Assembly: GCA_020062545.1 (NCBI GenBank)
Contig: JAGUWD010000005.1
Location: 1-64,000, forward strand
Length of the DNA stretch: 64,000 nucleotides
Direction of reading: 5' to 3'
Origin: Thermodesulfovibrionales bacterium
GTDB taxonomy: Bacteria > Nitrospirota > Thermodesulfovibrionia > Thermodesulfovibrionales > Dissulfurispiraceae
Shown: in pieces, positions 6,050 to 16,714 of the stretch
How the letters are laid out: each line of letters opens with the position of its first letter
Position numbering within the stretch: the first letter of the stretch is position 1
Program-made: the position numbers and the translations under genes
The notes under the pieces: model-generated
What the model saw: only the letters and a program-made list of their open reading frames with translations
Told to the model about the DNA's origin: nothing
Database searches by the model: none

Positions 6050-6421
6050 ATGAAAAGAACCAGAACAGAAATCTGCGAAATAACTTACATTGACAGAAAG
6101 AAGGTTTCATCTGTCATGAAAAAGATGAAGCCTGAAACCACTATGCAGCAACTCGCTGAGACCTTCAAAGTCCTCGGCGACCCCACAAGGACAAAAATAA
6201 TTTTTGCATTATCACAAGAGGAACTCTGTGTATGTGACATTGCCAATCTCTTGGGTGCAACAAAGTCTGCAGTATCCCACCAGTTGAGGATACTGCGAAA
6301 CATGAGGCTTGTGAAATACAGGAAAGAAGGGAAGATGGTCTTTTATTCCCTTGATGATGAACATATAAAGAACCTGTTCAATGAATGTTTAAGACATGTC
6401 GAAGAAGAAGGACGTGTTTGA
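6050..6421 (+). CDS. ArsR/SmtB-family metal-responsive repressor
   Basis: 123 aa from the ATG at 6050. Core TFKVLGDPTRTKIIFAL, the metal site ELCVCDIANLL (CxC in helix alpha3, as in CadC/CmtR/ArsR sensors), recognition helix GATKSAVSHQLRILRNMRL and wing YRKEGKMVFYSLDDEHI. It precedes the metal ATPase by 2 bp, so it most likely represses its own operon and is released by metal binding. Paralogue of the gene at 1084, which keeps only one cysteine of the CxC. Confidence 0.92.
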   Translation: MKRTRTEICEITYIDRKKVSSVMKKMKPETTMQQLAETFKVLGDPTRTKIIFALSQEELCVCDIANLLGATKSAVSHQLRILRNMRLVKYRKEGKMVFYSLDDEHIKNLFNECLRHVEEEGRV

Positions 6422-6423
6422 AA

Positions 6424-8514
6424 ATGACTAAGCATGATAACATAAAGACACTTAGTCTTACCGTAAAAGGCCTTGACTGTGCTACATGCGCAGAGAAGAT
6501 AGAAAAGGCATTAATGCGGCATGAAGGCATTAAAGGGATCACGGTATACCTTGGTGTCGAAAAGGCAGATATTCAGTTTGACCCTACAATAATAAAGGAA
6601 AAATCTATTATAGACACAATTAATAATCTTGGATATAAGGTCGTAACAGGAAAGGAAGAAGCCCCAAAGATTTTTTTCTTAAAAGGTGAGTGGACATTTG
6701 ATATATTGAGGATAGGGATTGTATTTCTCCTGATTGTCCTGAGCCTTACCGGAATAACAAAGAGGCTTTCGCCAATCGATATTTTTTCAATAATCGCCAT
6801 TGTAGTCGGAGGTTATCCCCTTATAAAGCATGCATACATAGACCTGAGAGAAAAGGCTATCACTGCCGATGTCTTTATGGCTCTGGGCGTTGTTGCTGCA
6901 TCAGCCATAGGAGAATTCCGCTCTGCTGCAATAATAGCCTTTTTCATGCTTATATCCGAATTCATTGATTCCTTTACCATGGAGAAATCAAGAAAGGCCA
7001 TAAAGGATCTAATCGACATGGCGCCCAAAACAGCGAGGGTGAAGAGGGGTGATACAGAAATAGAAATTCCTGTTGAAGAAGTAAAGAAAGGCGATATTGT
7101 TGTTGTTAAGCCTGGAGAAAAAATCCCGGTTGAAGGTGTAATCGTCTCTGGAAGTGGATCTGTAAATCAAGCGCCAATTACAGGAGAATCCATTCCTGTG
7201 GGAAAAAAGGAAGGGGACATTGTGTATGCAGCAACTATCAATCAACTTGGTGTTTTATTTATAAAGGTTACCCATACTGGGCAGGATACAACCTATGCGA
7301 GGATTATAAAGCTCGTTGAGGAGGCAGAGGCATCAAAGGCGCCTGTACAGAGGATAGCCGACAGATTTGCAGCATACTTTACACCAGCAATATTAGCCAT
7401 CGCAATCATCACATTTTTAATTACATTGAAGATAACAAATGCCATTGCTGTTATTGTTGTGGCATGTCCCTGTACTGTTGCCATAGCAACACCCCTTGCA
7501 GTGGTAGCGAGTATGGGCAAGGCTGCAAAGAAGGGCATTATCATAAAGGGAGGACGCTATCTTGAAGCACTTGCAAAAGTAGATGCCATAGTTATGGACA
7601 AAACAGGGACGGTCACTATTGGAGACCCTGTAGTAACAGACATAAAGGGCTTTGCAGAGCATGATGATAAAGAGATAATCTCATGCGCTGCCGGAGTGGA
7701 GCGGTATTCAGAGCATCCACTTGCAAAGGCAATAATTAAAAAGGCGATGGAAATGGGGACGGCTGTCCCGGAACCCGATGAATACAGAATTGTTCCCGGG
7801 ATGGGTATAGAGGCCGTTATAAACGGCAAAAGGATGCTCCTCGGAAGCAGGGAGATGTTGAAAATTTCTGATATAACCCTTCCAGGAGAGACCGAAAGAT
7901 ATATAAAGCAGAAGGAAGAAGAAGGAAAGACAGCCCTGCTTTTATCCCACGACAATATAATCTGCGGTGTTATCTGTGTGGCAGATATTATCAGAGAGGG
8001 AAGTATTGAAGCCATAAACTTTTTAAAGAACCTCGGTTTTGATGAACCGATTATGCTTACAGGAGACAATCCACGAACAGCCAATGCCATTGCTTCATCT
8101 TTAGGAATTAAAAATGTTAAGGCACAACTACTGCCCGAAGACAAGCTTAATGTCATAAAAGAATTAGAGTCGAGCGGTAGAAAAGTTCTGATGGTAGGAG
8201 ACGGTATAAACGATGCGCCTGCCCTTGCACAGGCGCATGTGGGCATAGCAATGGGAGCAGTTGGCTCTGATGCGGCAATTGAGGCATCGGATGTTGCATT
8301 GATGAGAGATGAGTGGAAGCAAATACCAGAGGCGGTGATGATCGGAAGAAAGACCTTTAGCATCATAAAGCAAAACCTTGCAGTTGGAATAATCTTTAAT
8401 TTAGTCGGCATCACCCTTGCCTCAACAGGCATCCTCTCGCCTGCAATGGCAGCAGTGGCCCATGTGATGCCCGATGTTCTTGTTTTTTTGAATTCATCGA
8501 GGTTATTGAAATAA
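6424..8514 (+). CDS. Heavy-metal P1B-type ATPase (CPC)
   Basis: 696 aa from the ATG at 6424. Order: HMA metal-binding domain (GLDCATC, C19/C22), membrane helices, A-domain TGES, CPC motif C348-P-C350, phosphorylation site DKTGT with D392, and MVGDGINDAPAL, then two C-terminal helices. It pumps soft metal ions out of the cytoplasm. The last helix reads AHVMPDVLVFLNSSRLL: the position holding Asp in ZntA-like and Met in CopA-like pumps is His here, so the metal cannot be set by simple rules. The operon arsR-ATPase-response regulator-kinase has essentially no gaps. Confidence 0.95.
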   Translation: MTKHDNIKTLSLTVKGLDCATCAEKIEKALMRHEGIKGITVYLGVEKADIQFDPTIIKEKSIIDTINNLGYKVVTGKEEAPKIFFLKGEWTFDILRIGIVFLLIVLSLTGITKRLSPIDIFSIIAIVVGGYPLIKHAYIDLREKAITADVFMALGVVAASAIGEFRSAAIIAFFMLISEFIDSFTMEKSRKAIKDLIDMAPKTARVKRGDTEIEIPVEEVKKGDIVVVKPGEKIPVEGVIVSGSGSVNQAPITGESIPVGKKEGDIVYAATINQLGVLFIKVTHTGQDTTYARIIKLVEEAEASKAPVQRIADRFAAYFTPAILAIAIITFLITLKITNAIAVIVVACPCTVAIATPLAVVASMGKAAKKGIIIKGGRYLEALAKVDAIVMDKTGTVTIGDPVVTDIKGFAEHDDKEIISCAAGVERYSEHPLAKAIIKKAMEMGTAVPEPDEYRIVPGMGIEAVINGKRMLLGSREMLKISDITLPGETERYIKQKEEEGKTALLLSHDNIICGVICVADIIREGSIEAINFLKNLGFDEPIMLTGDNPRTANAIASSLGIKNVKAQLLPEDKLNVIKELESSGRKVLMVGDGINDAPALAQAHVGIAMGAVGSDAAIEASDVALMRDEWKQIPEAVMIGRKTFSIIKQNLAVGIIFNLVGITLASTGILSPAMAAVAHVMPDVLVFLNSSRLLK

Positions 8515-9216
8515 ATGATTCAGCCGATTTTTGTAGTAGAAGACGATAAAAAAATGGCTCGTGTTGTAAAGGCATACCTCGAAGGTGCAGGCTACAGGGT
8601 GCTGCATTTCGAAAGAGGAAAAGATGCTGTAGAATCCGCCTTGAAGGAGATCCCGCTTCTTGCAATACTCGATTTGATGCTGCCTGATATGAGCGGCGAA
8701 GAAGTGTTTCAGGAGCTTAAAGAGATCGGCGACTTCCCTATAATTATGCTTACAGCAAAATCCTCGGAAGAGGAAAGGGTTGCAGGCTTTGCCCTTGGAG
8801 CGGATGATTATGTTGTTAAACCCTTCAGCCCGAGGGAATTAGTTTATAGGGTAAAAGCACTTTTAAAGAGGGCGCAGAAGAAAGATCTGGGCGATACAGA
8901 ACCTATGAGTTTTAACAATGGACTTCTAATAATAGATGGACAGAGCTATCAGGTTAAAAAGAAAGGTAAGTTGGTAAATCTTACGCCGACCGAATTCAAA
9001 ATCCTTTTCATCCTTGCATCTACGCCCAATAAGGTCTTTACAAGGGATGAACTTGTTGAAAAGGCTCTCGGCTATCAGTTTGAAGGCTATGAAAGAAGCA
9101 TCGATGCGCACATCAAGAATATAAGACAAAAGATTGAAGATGACCCTAAAAATCCCGAATTCATACTTACCATCTACGGCGTAGGGTATAGATTTATTGC
9201 CAAAAAAGACGGATAA
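8515..9216 (+). CDS. OmpR/PhoB-family response regulator
   Basis: 233 aa; ATG directly abuts the ATPase stop codon. Receiver domain with acidic cluster VVEDDKK, phospho-acceptor D53 (AILDLMLPDMSG), conserved T (IIMLTAKS) and K (DYVVKPFSPREL). The C-terminal winged helix has LTPTEFKILFILAS and GYERSIDAHIKNIRQKIE...YGVGYRF. It pairs with the kinase 4 bp downstream. A 31-bp sequence with 10-bp direct repeats before the ZraP-like gene (10570-10600) and before the SHOCT gene (16323-16353) is a candidate binding site. Confidence 0.95.
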   Translation: MIQPIFVVEDDKKMARVVKAYLEGAGYRVLHFERGKDAVESALKEIPLLAILDLMLPDMSGEEVFQELKEIGDFPIIMLTAKSSEEERVAGFALGADDYVVKPFSPRELVYRVKALLKRAQKKDLGDTEPMSFNNGLLIIDGQSYQVKKKGKLVNLTPTEFKILFILASTPNKVFTRDELVEKALGYQFEGYERSIDAHIKNIRQKIEDDPKNPEFILTIYGVGYRFIAKKDG

Positions 9217-9220
9217 AGGG

Positions 9221-10588
9221 ATGCCTAAAAGCCTCTATATAAAATTTCTCGTATTGCTTCTATCTGTTTCTATAATTGCCCTTTCTGCGGCTCTATTCCT
9301 CAGAGAATTAATGATTAAAGATTTCCGCGAATATCTGGAGGGAGAGCTTGAAGACAGGGTTTATTGGGTTATGGCAGACCTTGAAGGCACATATGAAAAG
9401 TATTCTGGCTGGAACAAAGAAGTAATCGGTGAGGATGCGATATGGGCGTTGATGCTGGGTTTTGAGATAAGAATTTTTGATATTGACGGCAGTTTGGTAA
9501 TGAACACGGAAAAAGCTCTCGGCACGCTGTCTCCTCTGGTAAAAAAACGTGTGATGCCAATCTCTGAATTGAGGGCAGTGGAAAAGGGCAGCAGGTTTCT
9601 GCCTTATCCCTTATTTTTGAGAGGCAAGGAAATCGGCAGTCTCGAAGTGAGATTTCTTAAACCCAGAAAAGAGAATATCTTTATCGAGAGATCGAATAGA
9701 TTCCTTTTGTTCTCTCTTTTTGGATTAGGCGGTTTGGCTGTCTTGCTGAGCGTCATATTTTCGAGGAAACTGACATATCCCATAAAGAGACTCGCATCCG
9801 CTGCAAAGGCTATAAGCGAGGGGAATCTCAAAAGCAGGGTTAATATTTCAGGAAATGATGAGATAAGCGAACTGTCAGCTACATTTAATAAAATGTCAAA
9901 GACCCTTGAGATGCAGGAATCTCTCAGGAAAAAACTTATTTCCAATACTGCCCACGAACTCAGGACGCCTCTGGGAGCGATGAGGGGAGAACTTGAAGGA
10001 ATGATAGACGGCTTTATTCCTATGGATAAGGAACATCTTCAGTCTTTATACGAGGAGACAGGAAGGCTTAAAAATATCCTCGAAGGGATCGAGGAACTTT
10101 CACAGGCTCAGGCAAGCGCGCTTTCTTTAAGAAAACAGCAGATAGAATTAAAGCCGTTTTTGGAAAGTATCCTTGATAGGTTCAACAAACTTTTTTTTGA
10201 TAAAGGCATTTCTGCCGAACTTAGATGCAGAGAGAAATTAATGATATATGCCGATCCCGACAGACTCAGCCAGATTGTGGTTAATCTTCTAAGTAATGCA
10301 TTAAAAGCAACAGATAAAGGCGGAAAGGTTTGGATAAGCGCAGGCATTAAAAATTCAGAGGTATTTATAGAAATTGGCGATACAGGACATGGAATAAAGG
10401 AGAAAGACCTGCCGTTTATTTTTGAAAGATTTTACAAGATCTCCGAAGGTGGCCTTGGTCTTGGACTCGCCATTGTAAAAGAGTTGGTAGATGCTCATGG
10501 GGGAAGGATAGAAGTGAAGAGCGGATATGGGAAAGGCGCTGTCTTTACAGTCTATATGCCATCAGACTATCTTTACAATTCTTCATAA
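9221..10588 (+). CDS. Membrane sensor histidine kinase
   Basis: 455 aa from the ATG at 9221 (a TTG at 9197 would overlap the regulator). Helix 1 (~10-28), periplasmic sensor of ~135 residues, helix 2 (~160-180), HAMP (YPIKRLASAAKAISEGNLKSRV), HisKA with H245 (SNTAHELRTPLG), and a HATPase with N box (IVVNLLSNALKA), G1 box (DTGHGIKEKDLPFIFERFYK) and G2 box (GGLGLGLAIVKELVDAHGG). CpxA/BaeS-like layout. Next to a metal pump and a ZraP/Spy-like protein, it probably senses metal or envelope stress. Its last codons overlap a regulatory repeat. Confidence 0.94.
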   Translation: MPKSLYIKFLVLLLSVSIIALSAALFLRELMIKDFREYLEGELEDRVYWVMADLEGTYEKYSGWNKEVIGEDAIWALMLGFEIRIFDIDGSLVMNTEKALGTLSPLVKKRVMPISELRAVEKGSRFLPYPLFLRGKEIGSLEVRFLKPRKENIFIERSNRFLLFSLFGLGGLAVLLSVIFSRKLTYPIKRLASAAKAISEGNLKSRVNISGNDEISELSATFNKMSKTLEMQESLRKKLISNTAHELRTPLGAMRGELEGMIDGFIPMDKEHLQSLYEETGRLKNILEGIEELSQAQASALSLRKQQIELKPFLESILDRFNKLFFDKGISAELRCREKLMIYADPDRLSQIVVNLLSNALKATDKGGKVWISAGIKNSEVFIEIGDTGHGIKEKDLPFIFERFYKISEGGLGLGLAIVKELVDAHGGRIEVKSGYGKGAVFTVYMPSDYLYNSS

Positions 10589-10600
10589 TTCCTTCGCTGT
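10570..10600 (+). promoter_or_regulatory. 31-bp regulatory repeat, copy 1
   Basis: Begins TCTTTACAATTCTTC and contains 10-bp direct repeats ACAATTCTTC (10575-10584) and ATAATTCCTT (10585-10594). It matches 16323-16353 at 30 of 31 positions. It overlaps the end of the kinase gene and lies about 60 bp upstream of the ZraP-like gene. Tandem half-sites at helical spacing fit binding by an OmpR-type regulator. Confidence 0.6.
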
Positions 10601-10661
10601 CTCTTCAAATCTCTTTGATAAGCTGTAAGCATAAAATCAAAGAAAAAGGAGGAAGAAGGAA

Positions 10662-11069
10662 ATGAAAAGAAGCACAGTAGTAACAGTTTTGGTAGCGGTA
10701 TTAGGGTTGTTTATTGCAGGCGGAGCGTACGCATGGTGGGGCGGAGGCTATGGAATGGGCTATGGGACAGGCACAAATGTAGAGACAATGAAGAAATTTC
10801 AGTCCGAGACCCTGAGTTTAAGGGATGCGATTATGACAAAAAATCTTGAACTTCAGAATGAGTATAACAAACCTGCCCCTGATGCTAACCGCATTGCTGC
10901 GCTCCAGAAGGAGATTATAGACCTTCAGGCAAAGATTCAGACAGTTGCCGAAAAACACGGCATTACTGCAGGCGGCGCTATGGGCGGCCACATGGGCGGT
11001 ATGATGATGAGCCGCGGCATGATGGGTTCTGGTATGATGATGGACATGTGCCCTATGATGGGCTGGTAG
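10662..11069 (+). CDS. ZraP/Spy/CpxP-like periplasmic metal-binding protein
   Basis: 135 aa with a strong Shine-Dalgarno (AAGGAGGAAG). Signal peptide ends GGAYA; then the WWGGGYGMGYGTG segment, a helical hairpin (METMKKFQSETLSLRDAIMTKN... IIDLQAKIQTVAEKHGI) as in ZraP/Spy, and a Met/Gly/His tail (GGHMGGMMMSRGMMGSG, MMMDMCPMMGW) suited to Cu(I)/Zn binding. Encoded directly after the two-component system and probably its target: the regulatory repeat 10570-10600 lies upstream. Acts in the periplasm as a metal-binding chaperone or stress buffer. Confidence 0.88.
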   Translation: MKRSTVVTVLVAVLGLFIAGGAYAWWGGGYGMGYGTGTNVETMKKFQSETLSLRDAIMTKNLELQNEYNKPAPDANRIAALQKEIIDLQAKIQTVAEKHGITAGGAMGGHMGGMMMSRGMMGSGMMMDMCPMMGW

Positions 11070-11520: not shown

Positions 11521-11625
11521 ATGTTTATCCATGAACAGTCGATAAGTATTGAGGAATATGTTTTTAAGAATAGAACCAAGTTCCTGCTTTTAAAAAAATC
11601 AAAGCACCATTTGAAAGAAGGCTGA
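11521..11625 (+). CDS. Possible 34-aa leader ORF coupled to the CBM48 gene
   Basis: An ATG at 11521 opens 34 codons (MFIHEQSISIEEYVFKNR...HHLKEG) whose TGA overlaps the ATG of the next gene (TGATG at 11623-11627). It has no clear ribosome site and no recognised family. The stop-start overlap suggests translational coupling, but chance is possible. Confidence 0.3.
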   Translation: MFIHEQSISIEEYVFKNRTKFLLLKKSKHHLKEG

Positions 11626-12038
11626 TGAATTTGTCAGATGTAAATTTAAAAGTTCATAAAGAATTGCAATTTATATTGTGGAGATCTCAACTTATTGTCA
11701 GGCTTGCAGTATTAATAGCCTTTTTGTATCTTCCTGCTTGTTCCACTCTGCAACACTTAGGCCCCACGGTCACTGACAGTGGGGTTGTCTTCATGCTTAA
11801 GGCTCCTGAAGCAAGACGGGTTGCCGTTGTGGGGAGCTTTAATCAATGGGATAAAGATAGAGACGTCCTTTCCGGCCCTGATAGCGATGGCATATGGAAG
11901 ATAACCCTTCCCCTGTCAGATGGCCGATACGAATATATTTTTTTAATAGACGGAGAAAAATGGCTGCTCGACCCTGCTGTTCCTTCCGTTGATGACGGGC
12001 TGGGTGGAAGAAATTCAGTCATTCACATTAAAAAATAA
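11625..12038 (+). CDS. Lipoprotein with CBM48/AMPK-type glycogen-binding domain
   Basis: 137 aa. A hydrophobic segment (LAVLIAFLYLPAC) ends in a lipobox-like LPAC with Cys at about 40; a TTG at 11676 would give a more usual signal length. The rest (residues ~50-137) is a single CBM48/isoamylase-N-type beta-sandwich: VVFMLKAPEARRVAVVGSFNQWDKD, DGIWKITLPLSDGRYEYIFLIDGEKWLLDP, NSVIHIKK. The paired Trp/Phe residues of starch-binding E-set domains are present. The same fold recurs as the periplasmic part of the anti-sigma factor two genes downstream. Predicted membrane-anchored in the periplasm; ligand unproven. Confidence 0.85.
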   Translation: MNLSDVNLKVHKELQFILWRSQLIVRLAVLIAFLYLPACSTLQHLGPTVTDSGVVFMLKAPEARRVAVVGSFNQWDKDRDVLSGPDSDGIWKITLPLSDGRYEYIFLIDGEKWLLDPAVPSVDDGLGGRNSVIHIKK

Positions 12039-12085
12039 TCTTAGTCTGTAACCTTTTGGATTTTAATTCGTCTTATATACAGAAA

Positions 12086-12649
12086 ATGAACGATGATATG
12101 CGATCAGAGGAATATTCAATTATTAAACAATGCATGGACGGCAATGCAGAAATATATGCAGTTTTGGTAGAAAGGTATAAAAATATGGTTTATAACATAG
12201 CATATAGAATGCTTGGAGATGACGAGGCAGCAAACGACATGGCTCAGGAAAGCTTTATCTCAGCATATGTTGCTTTAAAAGATTTTAAAAAGGGTGCGAA
12301 ATTCTCCTCATGGCTCTGCAGTATAGCCATTAATAAATGCAGGGACTATCTGAGAAGCAAAAAGGATAATATTTCTATTGATGAAATAGCCGAGGTATCT
12401 ACCTCTAAAATAGCGACTCCAGAAAACGTTTTGTATGAAAAGCAGGCCGAGCAAAACATACAGGCGGCCCTTAGTGCATTGCCAGGGGACTACCGTGAAG
12501 CGATTGTCTTAAAACACATAGAAGGATTGGATTACAGGGAAATGGAAAATATATTGGGTGTCAGTGAAAATGTCCTTAAAGTAAGGGCACATAGAGGCAG
12601 GGAGATGCTTAAAAGACTCCTGAAGGAAAGGGGGATTATTAATGAATAG
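12086..12649 (+). CDS. ECF-type RNA polymerase sigma factor
   Basis: 187 aa from the ATG at 12086. Region 2: YKNMVYNIAYRMLGDDEAANDMAQESFISAYVALKDFKKGAKFSSWLCSIAINKCRDYLR. Region 4: AALSALPGDYREAIVLKHIEGLDYREMENILGVSENVLKVRAHRGREMLKRLL. RpoE-like group. The downstream gene overlaps by 8 bp and encodes its presumed anti-sigma factor. It most likely drives this operon of surface proteins. I found no certain ECF promoter; a GAACC near 11573 is a weak -35 candidate. Confidence 0.92.
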   Translation: MNDDMRSEEYSIIKQCMDGNAEIYAVLVERYKNMVYNIAYRMLGDDEAANDMAQESFISAYVALKDFKKGAKFSSWLCSIAINKCRDYLRSKKDNISIDEIAEVSTSKIATPENVLYEKQAEQNIQAALSALPGDYREAIVLKHIEGLDYREMENILGVSENVLKVRAHRGREMLKRLLKERGIINE

Positions 12650-13295
12650 TGACATGGAAATAATACACAGGCTTCTTGACGGGGAAGTATCTGACGAGGA
12701 GAAAAGAGAAATTTTGAACAAAATAAACTCTGACCCTGTCCTGAAAGATGAGTTTAACAGGATTGATAAAGTTATCCGAATGGTTGAAAACAGCGAAAGG
12801 TTAATTGCTCCAGCATCTTTTACAGCAGATGTGATGAAAAAATTACCGGCACGCAGGAATTCTTATATAAAAGAGATATGGGATTTTCTTTTTAAAGGCA
12901 GGGTCTTGAGATGGAATATGGCTACAGCAATTGTAGTCGCGGGATTTTTTGTAGTGGTCATTACAGGGATATTTGAATTCCAGAAAAAAAATAATTTAGT
13001 CCAATATGCAAGCACATCAGGAGAATCAAGTATCACAGTCAGAATCAATTTTTATGCGCCAGAGGCGAAAAAGGTCGCTATTGCAGGAGATTTTAATAAA
13101 TGGAAGGTTAATGAGAACATTCTGAACAAGCAGGACAATGGTATCTGGACAATAGAGATACCTTTAAAACCAGGGACATATAACTATATGTTTGTTGTAG
13201 ACGGCAAGGTATGGGTGACGGACCCGAAGGCTGAATCCTACAGGGATGACGGGTTCGGTTATAAGAATGCTGTATTAAATGTTACTAAATTATGA
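12642..13295 (+). CDS. Transmembrane anti-sigma factor with periplasmic CBM48 sensor
   Basis: 217 aa. Residues 1-85: a helical anti-sigma-like cytoplasmic domain (MEIIHRLLDGEVSDEEKREI...DEFNRIDKVIRMVENSE) without the zinc-binding HxxxCxxC. One membrane helix (~92-113, ATAIVVAGFFVVVITGIF). Residues ~125-217: a CBM48/AMPK-type glycogen-binding domain (INFYAPEAKKVAIAGDFNKWK, NGIWTIEIPLKPGTYNYMFVVDGKVWVTDP). Position and 8-bp overlap with the sigma gene identify it as the anti-sigma. A carbohydrate-binding sensor on an anti-sigma suggests polysaccharide or envelope sensing; this is inference. Confidence 0.85.
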   Translation: MNSDMEIIHRLLDGEVSDEEKREILNKINSDPVLKDEFNRIDKVIRMVENSERLIAPASFTADVMKKLPARRNSYIKEIWDFLFKGRVLRWNMATAIVVAGFFVVVITGIFEFQKKNNLVQYASTSGESSITVRINFYAPEAKKVAIAGDFNKWKVNENILNKQDNGIWTIEIPLKPGTYNYMFVVDGKVWVTDPKAESYRDDGFGYKNAVLNVTKL

Positions 13296-13306
13296 GGGCG
13301 AAGAAA

Positions 13307-14236
13307 ATGAGAAGGATTATTCTGTTTGTAACAATAATCACTCTTATGGTTTATGGAATGGCGATGGCTGATACTGAAAAAGCCATTGATGGGATAAGGC
13401 TTTCCATAGAGAGGTCTGCAATGCCACAAGAAGCAAAGGCATCTCTTTTCAAAAAGGCATCGGATGCTGTGAATGCAGGCATTCAGTCAGATGACATAGC
13501 AATCATTATCAACAGGGGTCTCAATCGGGGAGTGGATAGTAAGACCATTGAGGGATTTATTGATATTGCCGTAAAGATAAAGATACAGAACCTGCCTGTC
13601 AGGCCTGTTTTAGATAGGGTGCAGCAGGGTCTGTCAAAGGGAGTTCCTCCTAAAAGGATTCTTGGTGCTGCAAACAACTTAGCAGAAAAACTGGGCGGTG
13701 CCAATACTATCCTAAACAATCTCGTTAAAGAGGGCCAAAAGGTAAGTAATCCCAAAGAGAGGGAAGAGGCTGTACTTACTGTTGCACGGGCATTGGAAAG
13801 GTCAATTCCTGAAATTGTTATCACACAGACAGGGATAAGGGTGAAAAAACATAATTATCCCATCTCGATGTTTGACAGGGCTATTGAGACCCTCACCAAT
13901 CTTGTGGAAGGTGGCATGCGTGTGGAACAGGCTTCAAAACTGGTTAACAAGGCAATGGATAAGGGGTATTCTGAAAAGGATATGCTAAAGATGGAGAGGG
14001 GAATATTCAGTGAGCTTAAAGAAGGAAAGAGAATGGAGGATGCAGCAAGAGGGATGGAAACAGCCATAGAGCGTGGTGGTTTTGACAGAGGTCACAGGGG
14101 AATGGAGGGCGGACAGATGCGCGGGACAGGCTCAGGAATGGGCGGTTCAGGTATGGATGGTTCAGGCATTGGTAGTGGTTCAAATAGAGGCAGCGTCCCT
14201 AACTGGCCCGGGGGTTCAGGGATGCAGAGGAGGTGA
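13307..14236 (+). CDS. Secreted helical-repeat protein with Gly/Met-rich tail (A)
   Basis: 309 aa from the ATG at 13307, 8 nt after GAGGG; an ATG at 13292 overlaps the previous stop and is an alternative. Signal peptide ends MAMADT. The body (~25-260) is alpha-helical with recurring motifs 'G(V/I/M)...A..L(V/N)..(L/M)..G' (INRGLNRGVDSKTIEGF, LVEGGMRVEQASKLVNKAMDKGYSEKDM), ending in a low-complexity Gly/Ser/Met tail. Paralogous in layout to the next gene. No known family recognised. Probably exported to the periplasm or surface with the downstream beta-barrel. Confidence 0.75.
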   Translation: MRRIILFVTIITLMVYGMAMADTEKAIDGIRLSIERSAMPQEAKASLFKKASDAVNAGIQSDDIAIIINRGLNRGVDSKTIEGFIDIAVKIKIQNLPVRPVLDRVQQGLSKGVPPKRILGAANNLAEKLGGANTILNNLVKEGQKVSNPKEREEAVLTVARALERSIPEIVITQTGIRVKKHNYPISMFDRAIETLTNLVEGGMRVEQASKLVNKAMDKGYSEKDMLKMERGIFSELKEGKRMEDAARGMETAIERGGFDRGHRGMEGGQMRGTGSGMGGSGMDGSGIGSGSNRGSVPNWPGGSGMQRR

Positions 14237-14314
14237 TTGCATATAAAAAGGTCAATAGAAACGGAATGTAGAAAGAATTTATTCGGCAAAAAAATTAAAA
14301 GAAGGAGGATCACA

Positions 14315-15031
14315 ATGTTAAGGAAAATCTCATTACTATCAGTAGTAGTAAGCTTGCTGACATTCGGCGGTATCGCAAATGCAATAACCCTCGATGAGGC
14401 TAAGGCAAAGGTTGAAAAACAGGCCACTGAAAGGAATTTGACTTCAGCGGATAGGTCTGAGGCAGTTACAACCCTACAGGGACTTGTGGAAAAAGGAGTT
14501 CCTGTGGAACATGCTTATAATGTTGTAGATGCATGCATTAATCAGGGTATTAAAGGCAAGGAGCTTGCTGAGATTGCAAAATCCATAGAATCTGCAAAGC
14601 CCGAAGCAAGGGATGAGGCAGCGTCTGTTGCCACACATGCAATCCAAAAGAAATATAAAGCAAAGGAAACTGTACAGATGGTGAATAAGTTTAACCAGAC
14701 TGTGGGACAGGGAGCTCCATCTGAGAAAACTGCAGAGGTAATGACAAGAAACATGGATAGAGGTGTTAGCAGTAAGCAGGTAATAAGTGCTACGGAAAGA
14801 TTTGGCAGTGATATGAAGTCTGGCATGTCTTCTGAAAAAGCAATGGAGCGTTCCATGTCTATGGATAAGGATAAGGTTAGGGACATGGACAGGATGGGCG
14901 GCTCCAATATGGGCCGCAATCCCGGCATGATCGATACTGGTATAGGTCGGGGAGCAGATATGGGTGGCTTTGGAATGGGACACGGTTCGGGTAAAGGTAT
15001 GGGAGGTGGCTCTATGGGCGGCCGCAGATAA
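14315..15031 (+). CDS. Secreted helical-repeat protein with Gly/Met-rich tail (B)
   Basis: 238 aa from the ATG at 14315, preceded by AAGGAGG; upstream codons in frame are not credible coding. Signal peptide (LRKISLLSVVVSLLTFGGIANA), helical repeats (LVEKGVPVEHAYNVVDACINQGIKGKEL, MDRGVSSKQVISATERFGSDMKSGMSSEKAMERS) and a Gly/Met/Arg tail (DMGGFGMGHGSGKGMGGG). Same architecture as the preceding gene, and the repeat motif 'VEKGVP.E.A' is shared, so the two likely arose by duplication. No known family; export is clear, function is not. Confidence 0.78.
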   Translation: MLRKISLLSVVVSLLTFGGIANAITLDEAKAKVEKQATERNLTSADRSEAVTTLQGLVEKGVPVEHAYNVVDACINQGIKGKELAEIAKSIESAKPEARDEAASVATHAIQKKYKAKETVQMVNKFNQTVGQGAPSEKTAEVMTRNMDRGVSSKQVISATERFGSDMKSGMSSEKAMERSMSMDKDKVRDMDRMGGSNMGRNPGMIDTGIGRGADMGGFGMGHGSGKGMGGGSMGGRR

Positions 15032-15067
15032 ATATCTGCGTCTTTCAGTGTCTTGCCTGCTGGAACA

Positions 15068-15100
15068 CAGGGAGGCGTATGCCTCCCTGCAAATATTTTT
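15068..15100 (+). terminator. Intra-operon hairpin with T-tract
   Basis: CAGGGAGGC-GTAT-GCCTCCCTG followed by CAAATATTTTTT. It may partly terminate or process transcripts between helical protein B and the beta-barrel gene. Its sequence resembles the hairpin at 11091-11112. Confidence 0.65.
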
Positions 15101-15117
15101 TAAAAGGAGAAGGAACG

Positions 15118-15897
15118 ATGCAGTCCAACAGGGTGTTAAATTTGGCGATGTGCATGGTTGTAGTGTTGCTGTCGGGTCTTGTTTTTACATCAAAGGCATG
15201 GAGCGGGTTAATCCTTGATGCCGGGGTCAAGGGTATTTATGAGGACAACATCAATGGTTCTCCATCTGATGCTGATAAAAAAGGTGATTTCTATACCGTG
15301 TTATCAGCTTCGGTGGGCGGGTATACAAAGGCTACAGATACTACCTATCTATTTCTAAGAGGCGATGCTGCAAACTACTTATACAGCAAGTATGATGACT
15401 TAAACGCTACCATTGCAGGTATTAGTGCCGGGGTATATAAGGAACTTGGTGATGTATTATCAGCCCAGATAGCACTGAAAGGTAAGATAAAAGATTTTAA
15501 AGGGGGGCCACGCGACAGCAATGCCTATGGCGGAACCTTTGAGCTCAAACAGCAGATTACGCGCAAGTTCTGGATAAAAGAAGGATACGAGTATGAGAAA
15601 AACGATGCAGACTCCAATCTTTTCAGCTACAAAGGGCACTCGGTTGGCATATGGTCAGGATATATGATTAACCCTCAGACCATGCTTAATCTTGGGTACA
15701 GCTATCTTACCCGCAAGTATGAAGACGCTTCTAATTTCAGGACAAAGTCCCATACAGTCTCGGTTGGTGCGGCAAGGGAAATCATTAAAAAAGTCTATGT
15801 CAATATCGGCTATGATAGGCAGTTTAATGACTCAAATGTGCCTGATACAGACTACAAAAATAATATTTACACCATTGGTGTAACATATAGCTTTTAA
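15118..15897 (+). CDS. Outer-membrane beta-barrel protein
   Basis: 259 aa from the ATG at 15118, after AAAGGAGAAGG. A signal peptide (MCMVVVLLSGLVFTSKAWS) is followed by alternating amphipathic strands (TVLSASVGGYTKATDTTYLFLRGDAANY, HSVGIWSGYMINPQTMLNLGYSYL, VYVNIGYDRQF) and a C-terminal strand ending in Phe (IYTIGVTYSF), the BAM recognition signature. Probably a 10-14-strand barrel. It is the only outer-membrane component of the ECF operon and may display or export the Gly-rich and helical secreted proteins. Confidence 0.85.
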   Translation: MQSNRVLNLAMCMVVVLLSGLVFTSKAWSGLILDAGVKGIYEDNINGSPSDADKKGDFYTVLSASVGGYTKATDTTYLFLRGDAANYLYSKYDDLNATIAGISAGVYKELGDVLSAQIALKGKIKDFKGGPRDSNAYGGTFELKQQITRKFWIKEGYEYEKNDADSNLFSYKGHSVGIWSGYMINPQTMLNLGYSYLTRKYEDASNFRTKSHTVSVGAAREIIKKVYVNIGYDRQFNDSNVPDTDYKNNIYTIGVTYSF

Positions 15898-15909
15898 AGG
15901 AGGACTATC

Positions 15910-16257
15910 ATGCGTAAATTAATAACAGTATTTGTTTGTGTGTTAGCAGTGACTGTGCTCTCTACGGGTATTGCACTGGCCCAAGATGATATGGCGCAGA
16001 AGAGCAAGGAAAATATAATTAAAGAGCGCATTATGGGTTTTGGAAGCGGCACCGGGTTTGGAAGCGGAGGAGTATTTGGAAGCGGCAGCAGAGCAGTAGA
16101 TGGTTTTGGAGGCTCAATGAGTTCAAGAGGTTCGGTTAATACAGGATATGGTTTTGGTGCTGGATTTAAATCCGATACTCGCAGTGGACCCATGAGCAGT
16201 GGGGATGCATGGTCAACTGGAAGTACAAATATACCACAGGGTGGATGGAGAAGATAA
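15910..16257 (+). CDS. Secreted Gly/Ser-rich low-complexity protein
   Basis: 115 aa with Shine-Dalgarno AAGGAGGAC. Signal peptide ends ALAQ. The mature part is dominated by GFGSG/GSG repeats (GFGSGTGFGSGGVFGSGS, GYGFGAGFKSDTRSG), ends GGWRR and lacks cysteine. It resembles a flexible surface or matrix peptide. Last gene of the ECF operon, 12 bp after the barrel gene and followed by a strong terminator. No family recognised. Confidence 0.7.
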   Translation: MRKLITVFVCVLAVTVLSTGIALAQDDMAQKSKENIIKERIMGFGSGTGFGSGGVFGSGSRAVDGFGGSMSSRGSVNTGYGFGAGFKSDTRSGPMSSGDAWSTGSTNIPQGGWRR

Positions 16258-16263
16258 AATTTT

Positions 16264-16300
16264 CAGGATGGGCAATGCATGCATTGTCCATCCTGTTTTT
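16264..16300 (+). terminator. Rho-independent terminator of the ECF operon
   Basis: CAGGATGGGCAATGC pairs with GCATTGTCCATCCTG (one G-T pair), followed by TTTTT. A long, near-perfect stem. Confidence 0.92.
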
Positions 16301-16322: not shown

Positions 16323-16353
16323 TCTTTACAATTCTTCATAATTCCTTCTCTGT
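16323..16353 (+). promoter_or_regulatory. 31-bp regulatory repeat, copy 2
   Basis: Matches 10570-10600 at 30 of 31 positions, including the 10-bp direct repeats ACAATTCTTC/ATAATTCCTT; similarity fades after the TTCAAA that follows both. It lies ~110 bp before the SHOCT gene, just past the operon terminator, so it is not explained by shared coding sequence. Confidence 0.6.
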
Positions 16354-16462: not shown

Positions 16463-16714
16463 ATGATGCGTAACTGGATGTGGGGAGATTGGATGCATGG
16501 ATACGGCATGGGATGGGGATGGTTTGGATTTATCCTTATGATAGCCTTCTGGGTGCTGGTAATTTTAGGGATTGTCTATCTTGTGAAGGCAATTGCCGGC
16601 AGAGGCGCATCTTCTAAAGAAGAGACGCCACTTGATATCCTGAAAAAAAGATATGCAAGGGGAGAAATTGATGCAGAGGAATTTGCAAGAAAGAAAAAAG
16701 ATTTAGAGTCCTGA
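16463..16714 (+). CDS. Small membrane SHOCT-domain protein
   Basis: 83 aa after AGGAGGCAGGT; the ATG at 16466 is equally possible. Met/Trp/Gly-rich N-terminus (MMRNWMWGDWMHGYGMGWGWFG), one membrane helix (~23-45), then a C-terminal SHOCT motif (TPLDILKKRYARGEIDAEEFARKKKDLES). Common beside copper/metal resistance genes. A copy of the regulatory repeat upstream suggests control by the two-component system at 8515-10588. Confidence 0.85.
   Translation: MMRNWMWGDWMHGYGMGWGWFGFILMIAFWVLVILGIVYLVKAIAGRGASSKEETPLDILKKRYARGEIDAEEFARKKKDLES

Follow-up and report, generated by a model that had tools for sequence, protein, structure and literature searches.

What does an anti-sigma factor sense when its periplasmic half is a carbohydrate-binding module of the glycogen-binding family CBM48? 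The question is raised by a block of genes at 11625-16295 in a 64,000-nucleotide stretch of DNA (hereafter the window; contig JAGUWD010000005.1, positions 1 to 64,000) from a Thermodesulfovibrionales bacterium, a member of Nitrospirota whose genome assembly comprises 2.62 Mb in 47 contigs. There, an extracytoplasmic function (ECF) sigma factor is followed by a membrane anti-sigma factor with a CBM48 domain and by genes for secreted and outer-membrane proteins. We think it somewhat probable that this module is an ECF switch that acts across the membrane and is dedicated to surface proteins, with the CBM48 domain most likely sensing a glycan.

Architecture of the locus and its anti-sigma factor

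The genes run on the forward strand in the order cbmLP, sigma, anti-sigma, hel1, hel2, omp and gly, and end in an intrinsic terminator:

11625-12038, + strand: cbmLP, a CBM48/AMPK1_CBM lipoprotein (Pfam CBM_48 5.1e-12 and AMPK1_CBM 9.6e-12, above curated cut-offs)
12047-12077, + strand: ECF-type promoter TGTAACCTTTTGGATTTTAATTCGTCTTATA in the cbmLP-sigma gap (GTAAC as -35, CGTC as -10)
12098-12649, + strand: ECF sigma factor of 183 amino acids (Sigma70_r2 1.5e-20, r4_2 3.6e-13; start chosen from orthologue starts, alternative ATG 12086)
12642-13295, + strand: anti-sigma factor (anti-sigma domain at residues ~2-67, transmembrane helix 92-116, periplasmic CBM48 ~131-215)
13032-13286, + strand: CBM48 domain of the anti-sigma factor (W154, W191, F205 and N209 corresponding to W100, W133, L146 and N150 of AMPK-beta)
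13292-14236, + strand: hel1, a secreted alpha-solenoid with a Gly/Met-rich disordered tail (AlphaFold2 model)
14315-15031, + strand: hel2, a secreted hel1 paralogue with a Gly/Met tail (mutual hidden Markov model matches to hel1; ATG start with AGGAGG upstream)
15068-15089, + strand: hairpin in the gap between hel2 and omp (perfect 9 pairs, GC-rich, poor T run)
15118-15897, + strand: omp, an outer-membrane beta-barrel (Pfam BBP2_2 7.6e-11; NCBIfam EpsL/TIGR03016 2e-8, below cut-off)
15910-16257, + strand: gly, a Gly/Ser-rich secreted protein by sequence, with orthologues in the closest relatives only
16264-16295, + strand: intrinsic terminator (14 pairs and a T run; -22.8 kcal/mol, z -4.2)

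Residues 5-72 of the anti-sigma factor matched the solved structure of RsiW (PDB 5wuq, E = 1.1e-5), and its C-terminal half matched AMPK1_CBM (3.4e-12) and CBM_48 (4.1e-12) in Pfam, both above curated cut-offs. In the AlphaFold model, four helices (2-12, 18-30, 32-50 and 58-67) precede a hydrophobic one at 92-116, and a CBM48 sandwich follows with a predicted local distance difference test score (pLDDT) of ~95. When this sandwich was searched with Foldseek, the best PDB matches were the carbohydrate modules of AMPK-beta (E = 4e-8). At a predicted template-modelling score of 0.42, with flexibly joined domains, the model was trusted for the separate domains and not for their arrangement. An N-terminal multi-helix domain, an adjoining ECF gene and one transmembrane helix together give the layout of class I membrane anti-sigma factors, and from its sequence the N-terminal domain would bind the sigma factor. 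A first-pass annotation of the window, made from the letters alone, had likewise proposed CBM48 on an anti-sigma factor with a sigma-binding type of N terminus, and both proposals held up, the former by structure prediction and the latter by sequence. The Hx3Cx2C zinc motif was missing from the Nitrospirota anti-sigma factors compared. Pfam searches up to E = 1 detected no RsgI N-terminal domain in the anti-sigma factor; nor did Pfam yield a FecR match in it or a TonB receptor domain among the operon proteins.

The sigma factor, 183-197 amino acids long across the start choices, contains regions 2 and 4 as its sole sigma regions (Pfam Sigma70_r2 and r4_2) and matched the NCBIfam model sigma70-ECF at 8e-31, above cut-off. 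Its true start is most likely ATG 12098 (or 12086); TTG 12056 is disfavoured because it falls within the promoter. The first-pass start codons of sigma and hel2 were corrected, hel2 beginning at ATG 14315 and not at TTG 14237. The remaining gene calls (lipoprotein, sigma, anti-sigma, helical pair, barrel, Gly-rich protein and a strong terminator) were all recovered at or near the coordinates first given, and the two predicted overlaps are real: the reading frames of sigma and anti-sigma share 8 bp (12642-12649), those of anti-sigma and hel1 4 bp (13292-13295). The annotation had further described one compact operon. This description fits sigma to gly but not cbmLP, which lies upstream of the sigma-operon promoter. 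We therefore dropped the simple single operon; since a conserved ECF promoter sits between cbmLP and sigma, the block probably forms two transcription units, cbmLP apart from sigma-to-gly. The hairpin at 15068-15089 is a possible attenuator or processing site.

The hel1 protein was modelled by AlphaFold2 with 12 helices at a mean pLDDT of 86.8, mostly >95 within the solenoid, and with a disordered low-complexity tail. Nothing in the PDB matched at E<=0.001, the top hits being designed helical repeats, and none of Pfam, NCBIfam and PHROG offered a convincing family; assignment of hel1 to a known fold was therefore abandoned.

Conservation, promoter and predicted regulon

Contrary to the initial view of the locus as a singular oddity, the module is widespread. 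A profile search across 396 sampled Nitrospirota genomes detected the full-length CBM48 anti-sigma factor in 59. Loci were read in 36 Nitrospirota genomes; wherever the contig permits, free CBM48 and hel1 stood together with sigma and anti-sigma, and gene order was kept in relatives, as the annotation had expected. Families f1, f5, f13, f15 and f25 show the order cbm-sigma-anti-sigma-hel1-(hel2)-omp, although omp was not detected at every locus. Family f29, probably Nitrospiraceae, is arranged as sigma-anti-sigma-cbm-hel1 with a Phenol_MetA_deg barrel just upstream; Nitrospiraceae include nitrifiers. In a second phylum, probably Elusimicrobiota, all nine fetched loci paired an ECF sigma factor with a CBM48 anti-sigma factor, each adjoined by a divergent hel1/hel2-like gene; no free CBM48 was seen adjoining these nine loci, and several of the anti-sigma factors keep Cys pairs of the zinc-motif type. 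As hel1 also adjoins every Nitrospirota anti-sigma gene whose contig extends far enough, it is the most constant partner after sigma and anti-sigma.

Three loci of the second phylum, L098, L049 (7599-8210) and L050 (3390-4016), carry short transmembrane CBM48 proteins with no adjoining ECF gene; the matches in L049 and L050 had been considered as anti-sigma factors and were rejected.

The promoter before sigma is conserved with the module. Its consensus reads TGTAAC-N16-CGTCTTAT, usually TGTAACnTTTT...CGTCTTAT, and GTAAC-N15/16-CGTC occurred in the cbmLP-sigma gap of 17 of the 18 related loci with the window's gene order, the 18th having a close variant. The 12-base form GTAACN{14,17}CGTCTTA matched once in the window (0.01 expected), and the strict form once in the entire host genome. 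In most members of f29, GTTTAC-N16-CGTCTAATG precedes sigma. When the DNA before the first gene was searched for generic two-block motifs, nothing rose above shuffles, because the promoter for the window's gene order lies in the cbmLP-sigma gap. An AAC-type -35 with a CGTC-type -10 is the classic ECF layout, and by sequence it is that of an autoregulated ECF promoter. The conserved position before sigma thus implies autoregulation, and sigma through gly look autoregulated from 12047-12077.

To look beyond the module, we scanned the 24 module-bearing genomes with the pattern GTAACNTTTN{11,13}CGTCWTA and, as a control, with the reversed pattern. The scan gave 33 matches and the reversed pattern 2 in these genomes; in six same-family genomes chosen as module-free, the scan gave 0. 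Nineteen sites were not sigma promoters, and by a crude test 15 of these preceded an open reading frame with a signal peptide, against backgrounds of 37% upstream of reading frames (p = 2.6e-4) and 15% at any position. The downstream products comprise Gly/Met-rich secreted proteins, DQTRDQLRDGTG-type repeat proteins, a DUF5666 lipoprotein and DUF2202 proteins, and further sites precede a free CBM48 and an HD-GYP protein; in genome G009 the ECF-type motif lies before cbmLP too. In f29, a second site, GTTTAC-N16-CGTCTAA, lies ~4 kb upstream, near the barrel gene, and heads a unit encoding a lipoprotein, a DUF5666 protein and a Gly/Arg/Asp-rich secreted protein. The recurrence of such products in separate lineages is our best evidence for a cell-surface output, and suggests that the regulon consists of surface proteins. 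The first-pass proposal that the circuit controls its own surface products agrees with the promoter before sigma and with its copies before secreted-protein genes in relatives. Within the host genome, no target other than the operon itself is convincing.

The HD-GYP site (L164, G009:C38:33986) has the ECF-type motif 168 nt before the gene, a possible link to cyclic-di-GMP.

Candidate ligands of the CBM48 domain

Glycan binding by AMPK-beta involves W100, K126, W133 and N150. We compared the equivalent residues in 24 anti-sigma factors and 25 free CBM48 copies. W100 was present in 24/24 and 25/25, respectively, W133 in 24/24 and 24/25, and N150 in 23/24 and 25/25, and the L146 position held Phe or Leu with one exception. 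Because this Trp/Trp/Asn face is conserved, a glycan is the favoured ligand, and glycan sensing by the anti-sigma CBM48, in line with the polysaccharide- or matrix-sensing circuit suggested by the annotation, is plausible.

The lipobox-like Cys of cbmLP is kept in A2 and in nearly all orthologues across Nitrospirota, L087 being the exception. In a tree of CBM48 domains, built from few columns, free and anti-sigma copies separated, a branch supported at 84/85 setting the free ones apart. Given this split, cbmLP is by sequence an old, separately maintained paralogue and not a recent duplicate. The annotation had called it a duplicate of the anti-sigma domain; both copies are indeed present, but the duplication is old and its free product stands, in the host genome, outside the sigma-driven unit.

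CBM48 proteins also occur in other settings. Genomes of the same order that have no anti-sigma factor carry a lone CBM48 protein of ~120-135 amino acids (L035-L040), and three genomes have 10-14 CBM48 matches clustered on one contig (G409:C2, G437:C2 and G420:C109), among them tandem-CBM48 frames and frames of 700-900 amino acids holding CBM48.

For the proposed switch, we envisage that sigma is held by the RsiW-like N-terminal domain of an anti-sigma factor that crosses the inner membrane once. The periplasmic CBM48 would receive the signal, most likely a poly- or oligosaccharide bound on the Trp/Trp/Asn face; an alpha-glucan-type polymer or the cell's own exopolysaccharide is a candidate. 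Sigma would then be freed, probably via regulated proteolysis ending with an RseP-like M50 protease, and the host genome encodes M50 proteases, one of them RseP-sized. Free sigma would transcribe its own operon, with hel1, hel2, barrel and gly, from TGTAAC-N16-CGTCTTAT, and in relatives would drive additional secreted proteins as well. In the host genome cbmLP, from another promoter, would probably bind a like ligand and present or buffer it.

Several observations weigh against a glycan-sensing switch. No glycosidase or glycan synthase was conserved beside the module in the loci read. The K126 equivalent is nearly always Met or Leu, the Lys of AMPK being lost, and FNxW-type residues may be conserved purely for the fold. 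As for the output, the wider regulon rests on relatives, as the single other promoter match in the host genome (C5:38383) looks spurious, and the signal-peptide test was crude and counted some sites that are mutual orthologues.

The main alternative is a protein ligand, because no glycan enzyme accompanies the module while hel1 always does. E-set domains frequently serve as protein-protein adaptors, and the CBM48 might sense hel1, cbmLP or an unassembled barrel in an export check resembling that of sigmaE/RseA. The constancy of hel1 and the loss of K126 fit such a check; a barrel is usual too, although its family varies (BBP2_2 in the window's gene order, Phenol_MetA_deg in f29). Yet a pure adaptor would have no need of the sugar-stacking Trp pair and Asn, which both paralogues keep phylum-wide, and we regard an adaptor role as a serious but minority possibility.

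The genes flanking the block suggest a second alternative, an operon for metal or envelope stress whose Met-rich tails bind copper or a like metal. At 6385-11069 lie an HMA ATPase gene (6385-8514), a response regulator/histidine kinase pair (8515-10588) and a gene for a ZraP-like protein, and a CTTCATAATTCCTTC box stands on both sides of the block, with an equivalent before cbmLP in three relatives (CTTCATA-N3/4-CTTC, matching in L031 and L082 and similar in L034). These metal neighbours, however, are not conserved with the module, and a metal-resistance island was therefore rejected. ATPases near the module in other families are Cation_ATPase (Ca-type) and not HMA, and in f29 and f25 it is Arg/Asp/Gln, not Met, that abounds in the tails and secreted products, so that a metal-responsive operon appears unlikely. 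Least probable of all is an ordinary ECF stress regulator in which CBM48 serves as a passive folded plug and activation depends on a site-1 protease alone: many membrane anti-sigma factors, those of sigmaE and sigmaW included, are governed mainly by site-1 cleavage, but here the domain has retained both its identity and its surface residues across very long divergence, a second phylum included.

The ZraP-like protein (10662-11069) is secreted, rich in Gly and Met, and weakly similar to ZraP/Metal_resist. The two CTTCATAATTCCTTC boxes, identical and on the + strand, are at 10581-10595 and 16334-16348; they precede this gene and a SHOCT-domain gene at 16463, respectively. The box is probably an OmpR-type response regulator site, served by the pair at 8515-10588.

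Returning to a glycan-sensing switch, we tentatively extend it: the CBM48 might read a polysaccharide matrix, made by the cell itself or by a neighbour, and induce a matching protein matrix, with cbmLP, expressed independently, as co-receptor or buffer, in at least two phyla. The protein matrix would comprise the alpha-solenoid, low-complexity proteins rich in Gly/Met or Arg/Asp, DUF5666 proteins and outer-membrane barrels. Were this speculative extension true, the module would be the first transcriptional sensor built on a CBM48 domain.

Comparison with known systems

The CBM48 domain shares with that of AMPK-beta its fold and most glycan-face residues (W100, W133 and N150, with L146 as Phe/Leu), whereas K126 is replaced and the domain lies outside the cytoplasm, either fused to an anti-sigma factor or carried by an anchored lipoprotein. 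Similarly, sigma and the anti-sigma N terminus resemble Bacillus SigW/RsiW (PDB 5wuq) in sequence, in the four-helix domain and in the single transmembrane helix; the Nitrospirota members do not have the Hx3Cx2C motif, however, and RsiW has no periplasmic CBM48. Class I anti-sigma groups are reported to have C-terminal domains specific to each group (PMC7406223), and the CBM48 anti-sigma factor is therefore a variant inside class I and not a separate class.

ECF signalling tied to carbohydrates, or to predicted carbohydrate-binding domains, is also found in Bacteroides ECF/anti-sigma systems and in actinobacterial ECF52/53 (PMC10766802). The former use TonB-dependent receptors (SusC/FecR type), of which there are none here, and in ECF52/53 the carbohydrate domains are fused to sigma itself, unlike here. 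The pairing of a CBM48 anti-sigma factor with an ECF sigma factor is apparently undescribed: a literature search found no CBM48/AMPK1_CBM or glycogen-binding anti-sigma factor, though it did not cover the ECF reclassification (10.1093/nar/gkaa1229), in which a numbered group is possible.

The nearest functional parallel is SigI/RsgI of Clostridium thermocellum, whose anti-sigma factors bear extracellular polysaccharide-binding modules (PMC4711584, PMC12203970). In both systems a membrane anti-sigma factor with an extracytoplasmic carbohydrate-binding module governs, here by prediction, a surface or secreted programme together with its own operon. Here, however, sigma is an ECF factor (r2 and r4_2) and not SigI, and the inhibitory N-terminal domain is RsiW-like and not RsgI_N; membership in SigI/RsgI therefore fails. 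The sensory modules differ as well, CBM48 here against CBM3, CBM42, PA14 or GH domains there, a feature analogous but not homologous to CBM3, and in place of glycan-degrading enzymes the constant partners are a free CBM48 lipoprotein and a secreted alpha-solenoid. Judged by sequence, the module works like SigI/RsgI yet stands outside that group. Collectively, our results describe a widespread signalling system in Nitrospirota and probably Elusimicrobiota, for which a promoter is defined and a regulon of surface proteins predicted. It offers a testable way into the building of the surface or biofilm matrix in hardly cultivated bacteria, and would carry the idea of carbohydrate-binding anti-sigma factors beyond clostridial cellulosomes into Gram-negative ECF systems.

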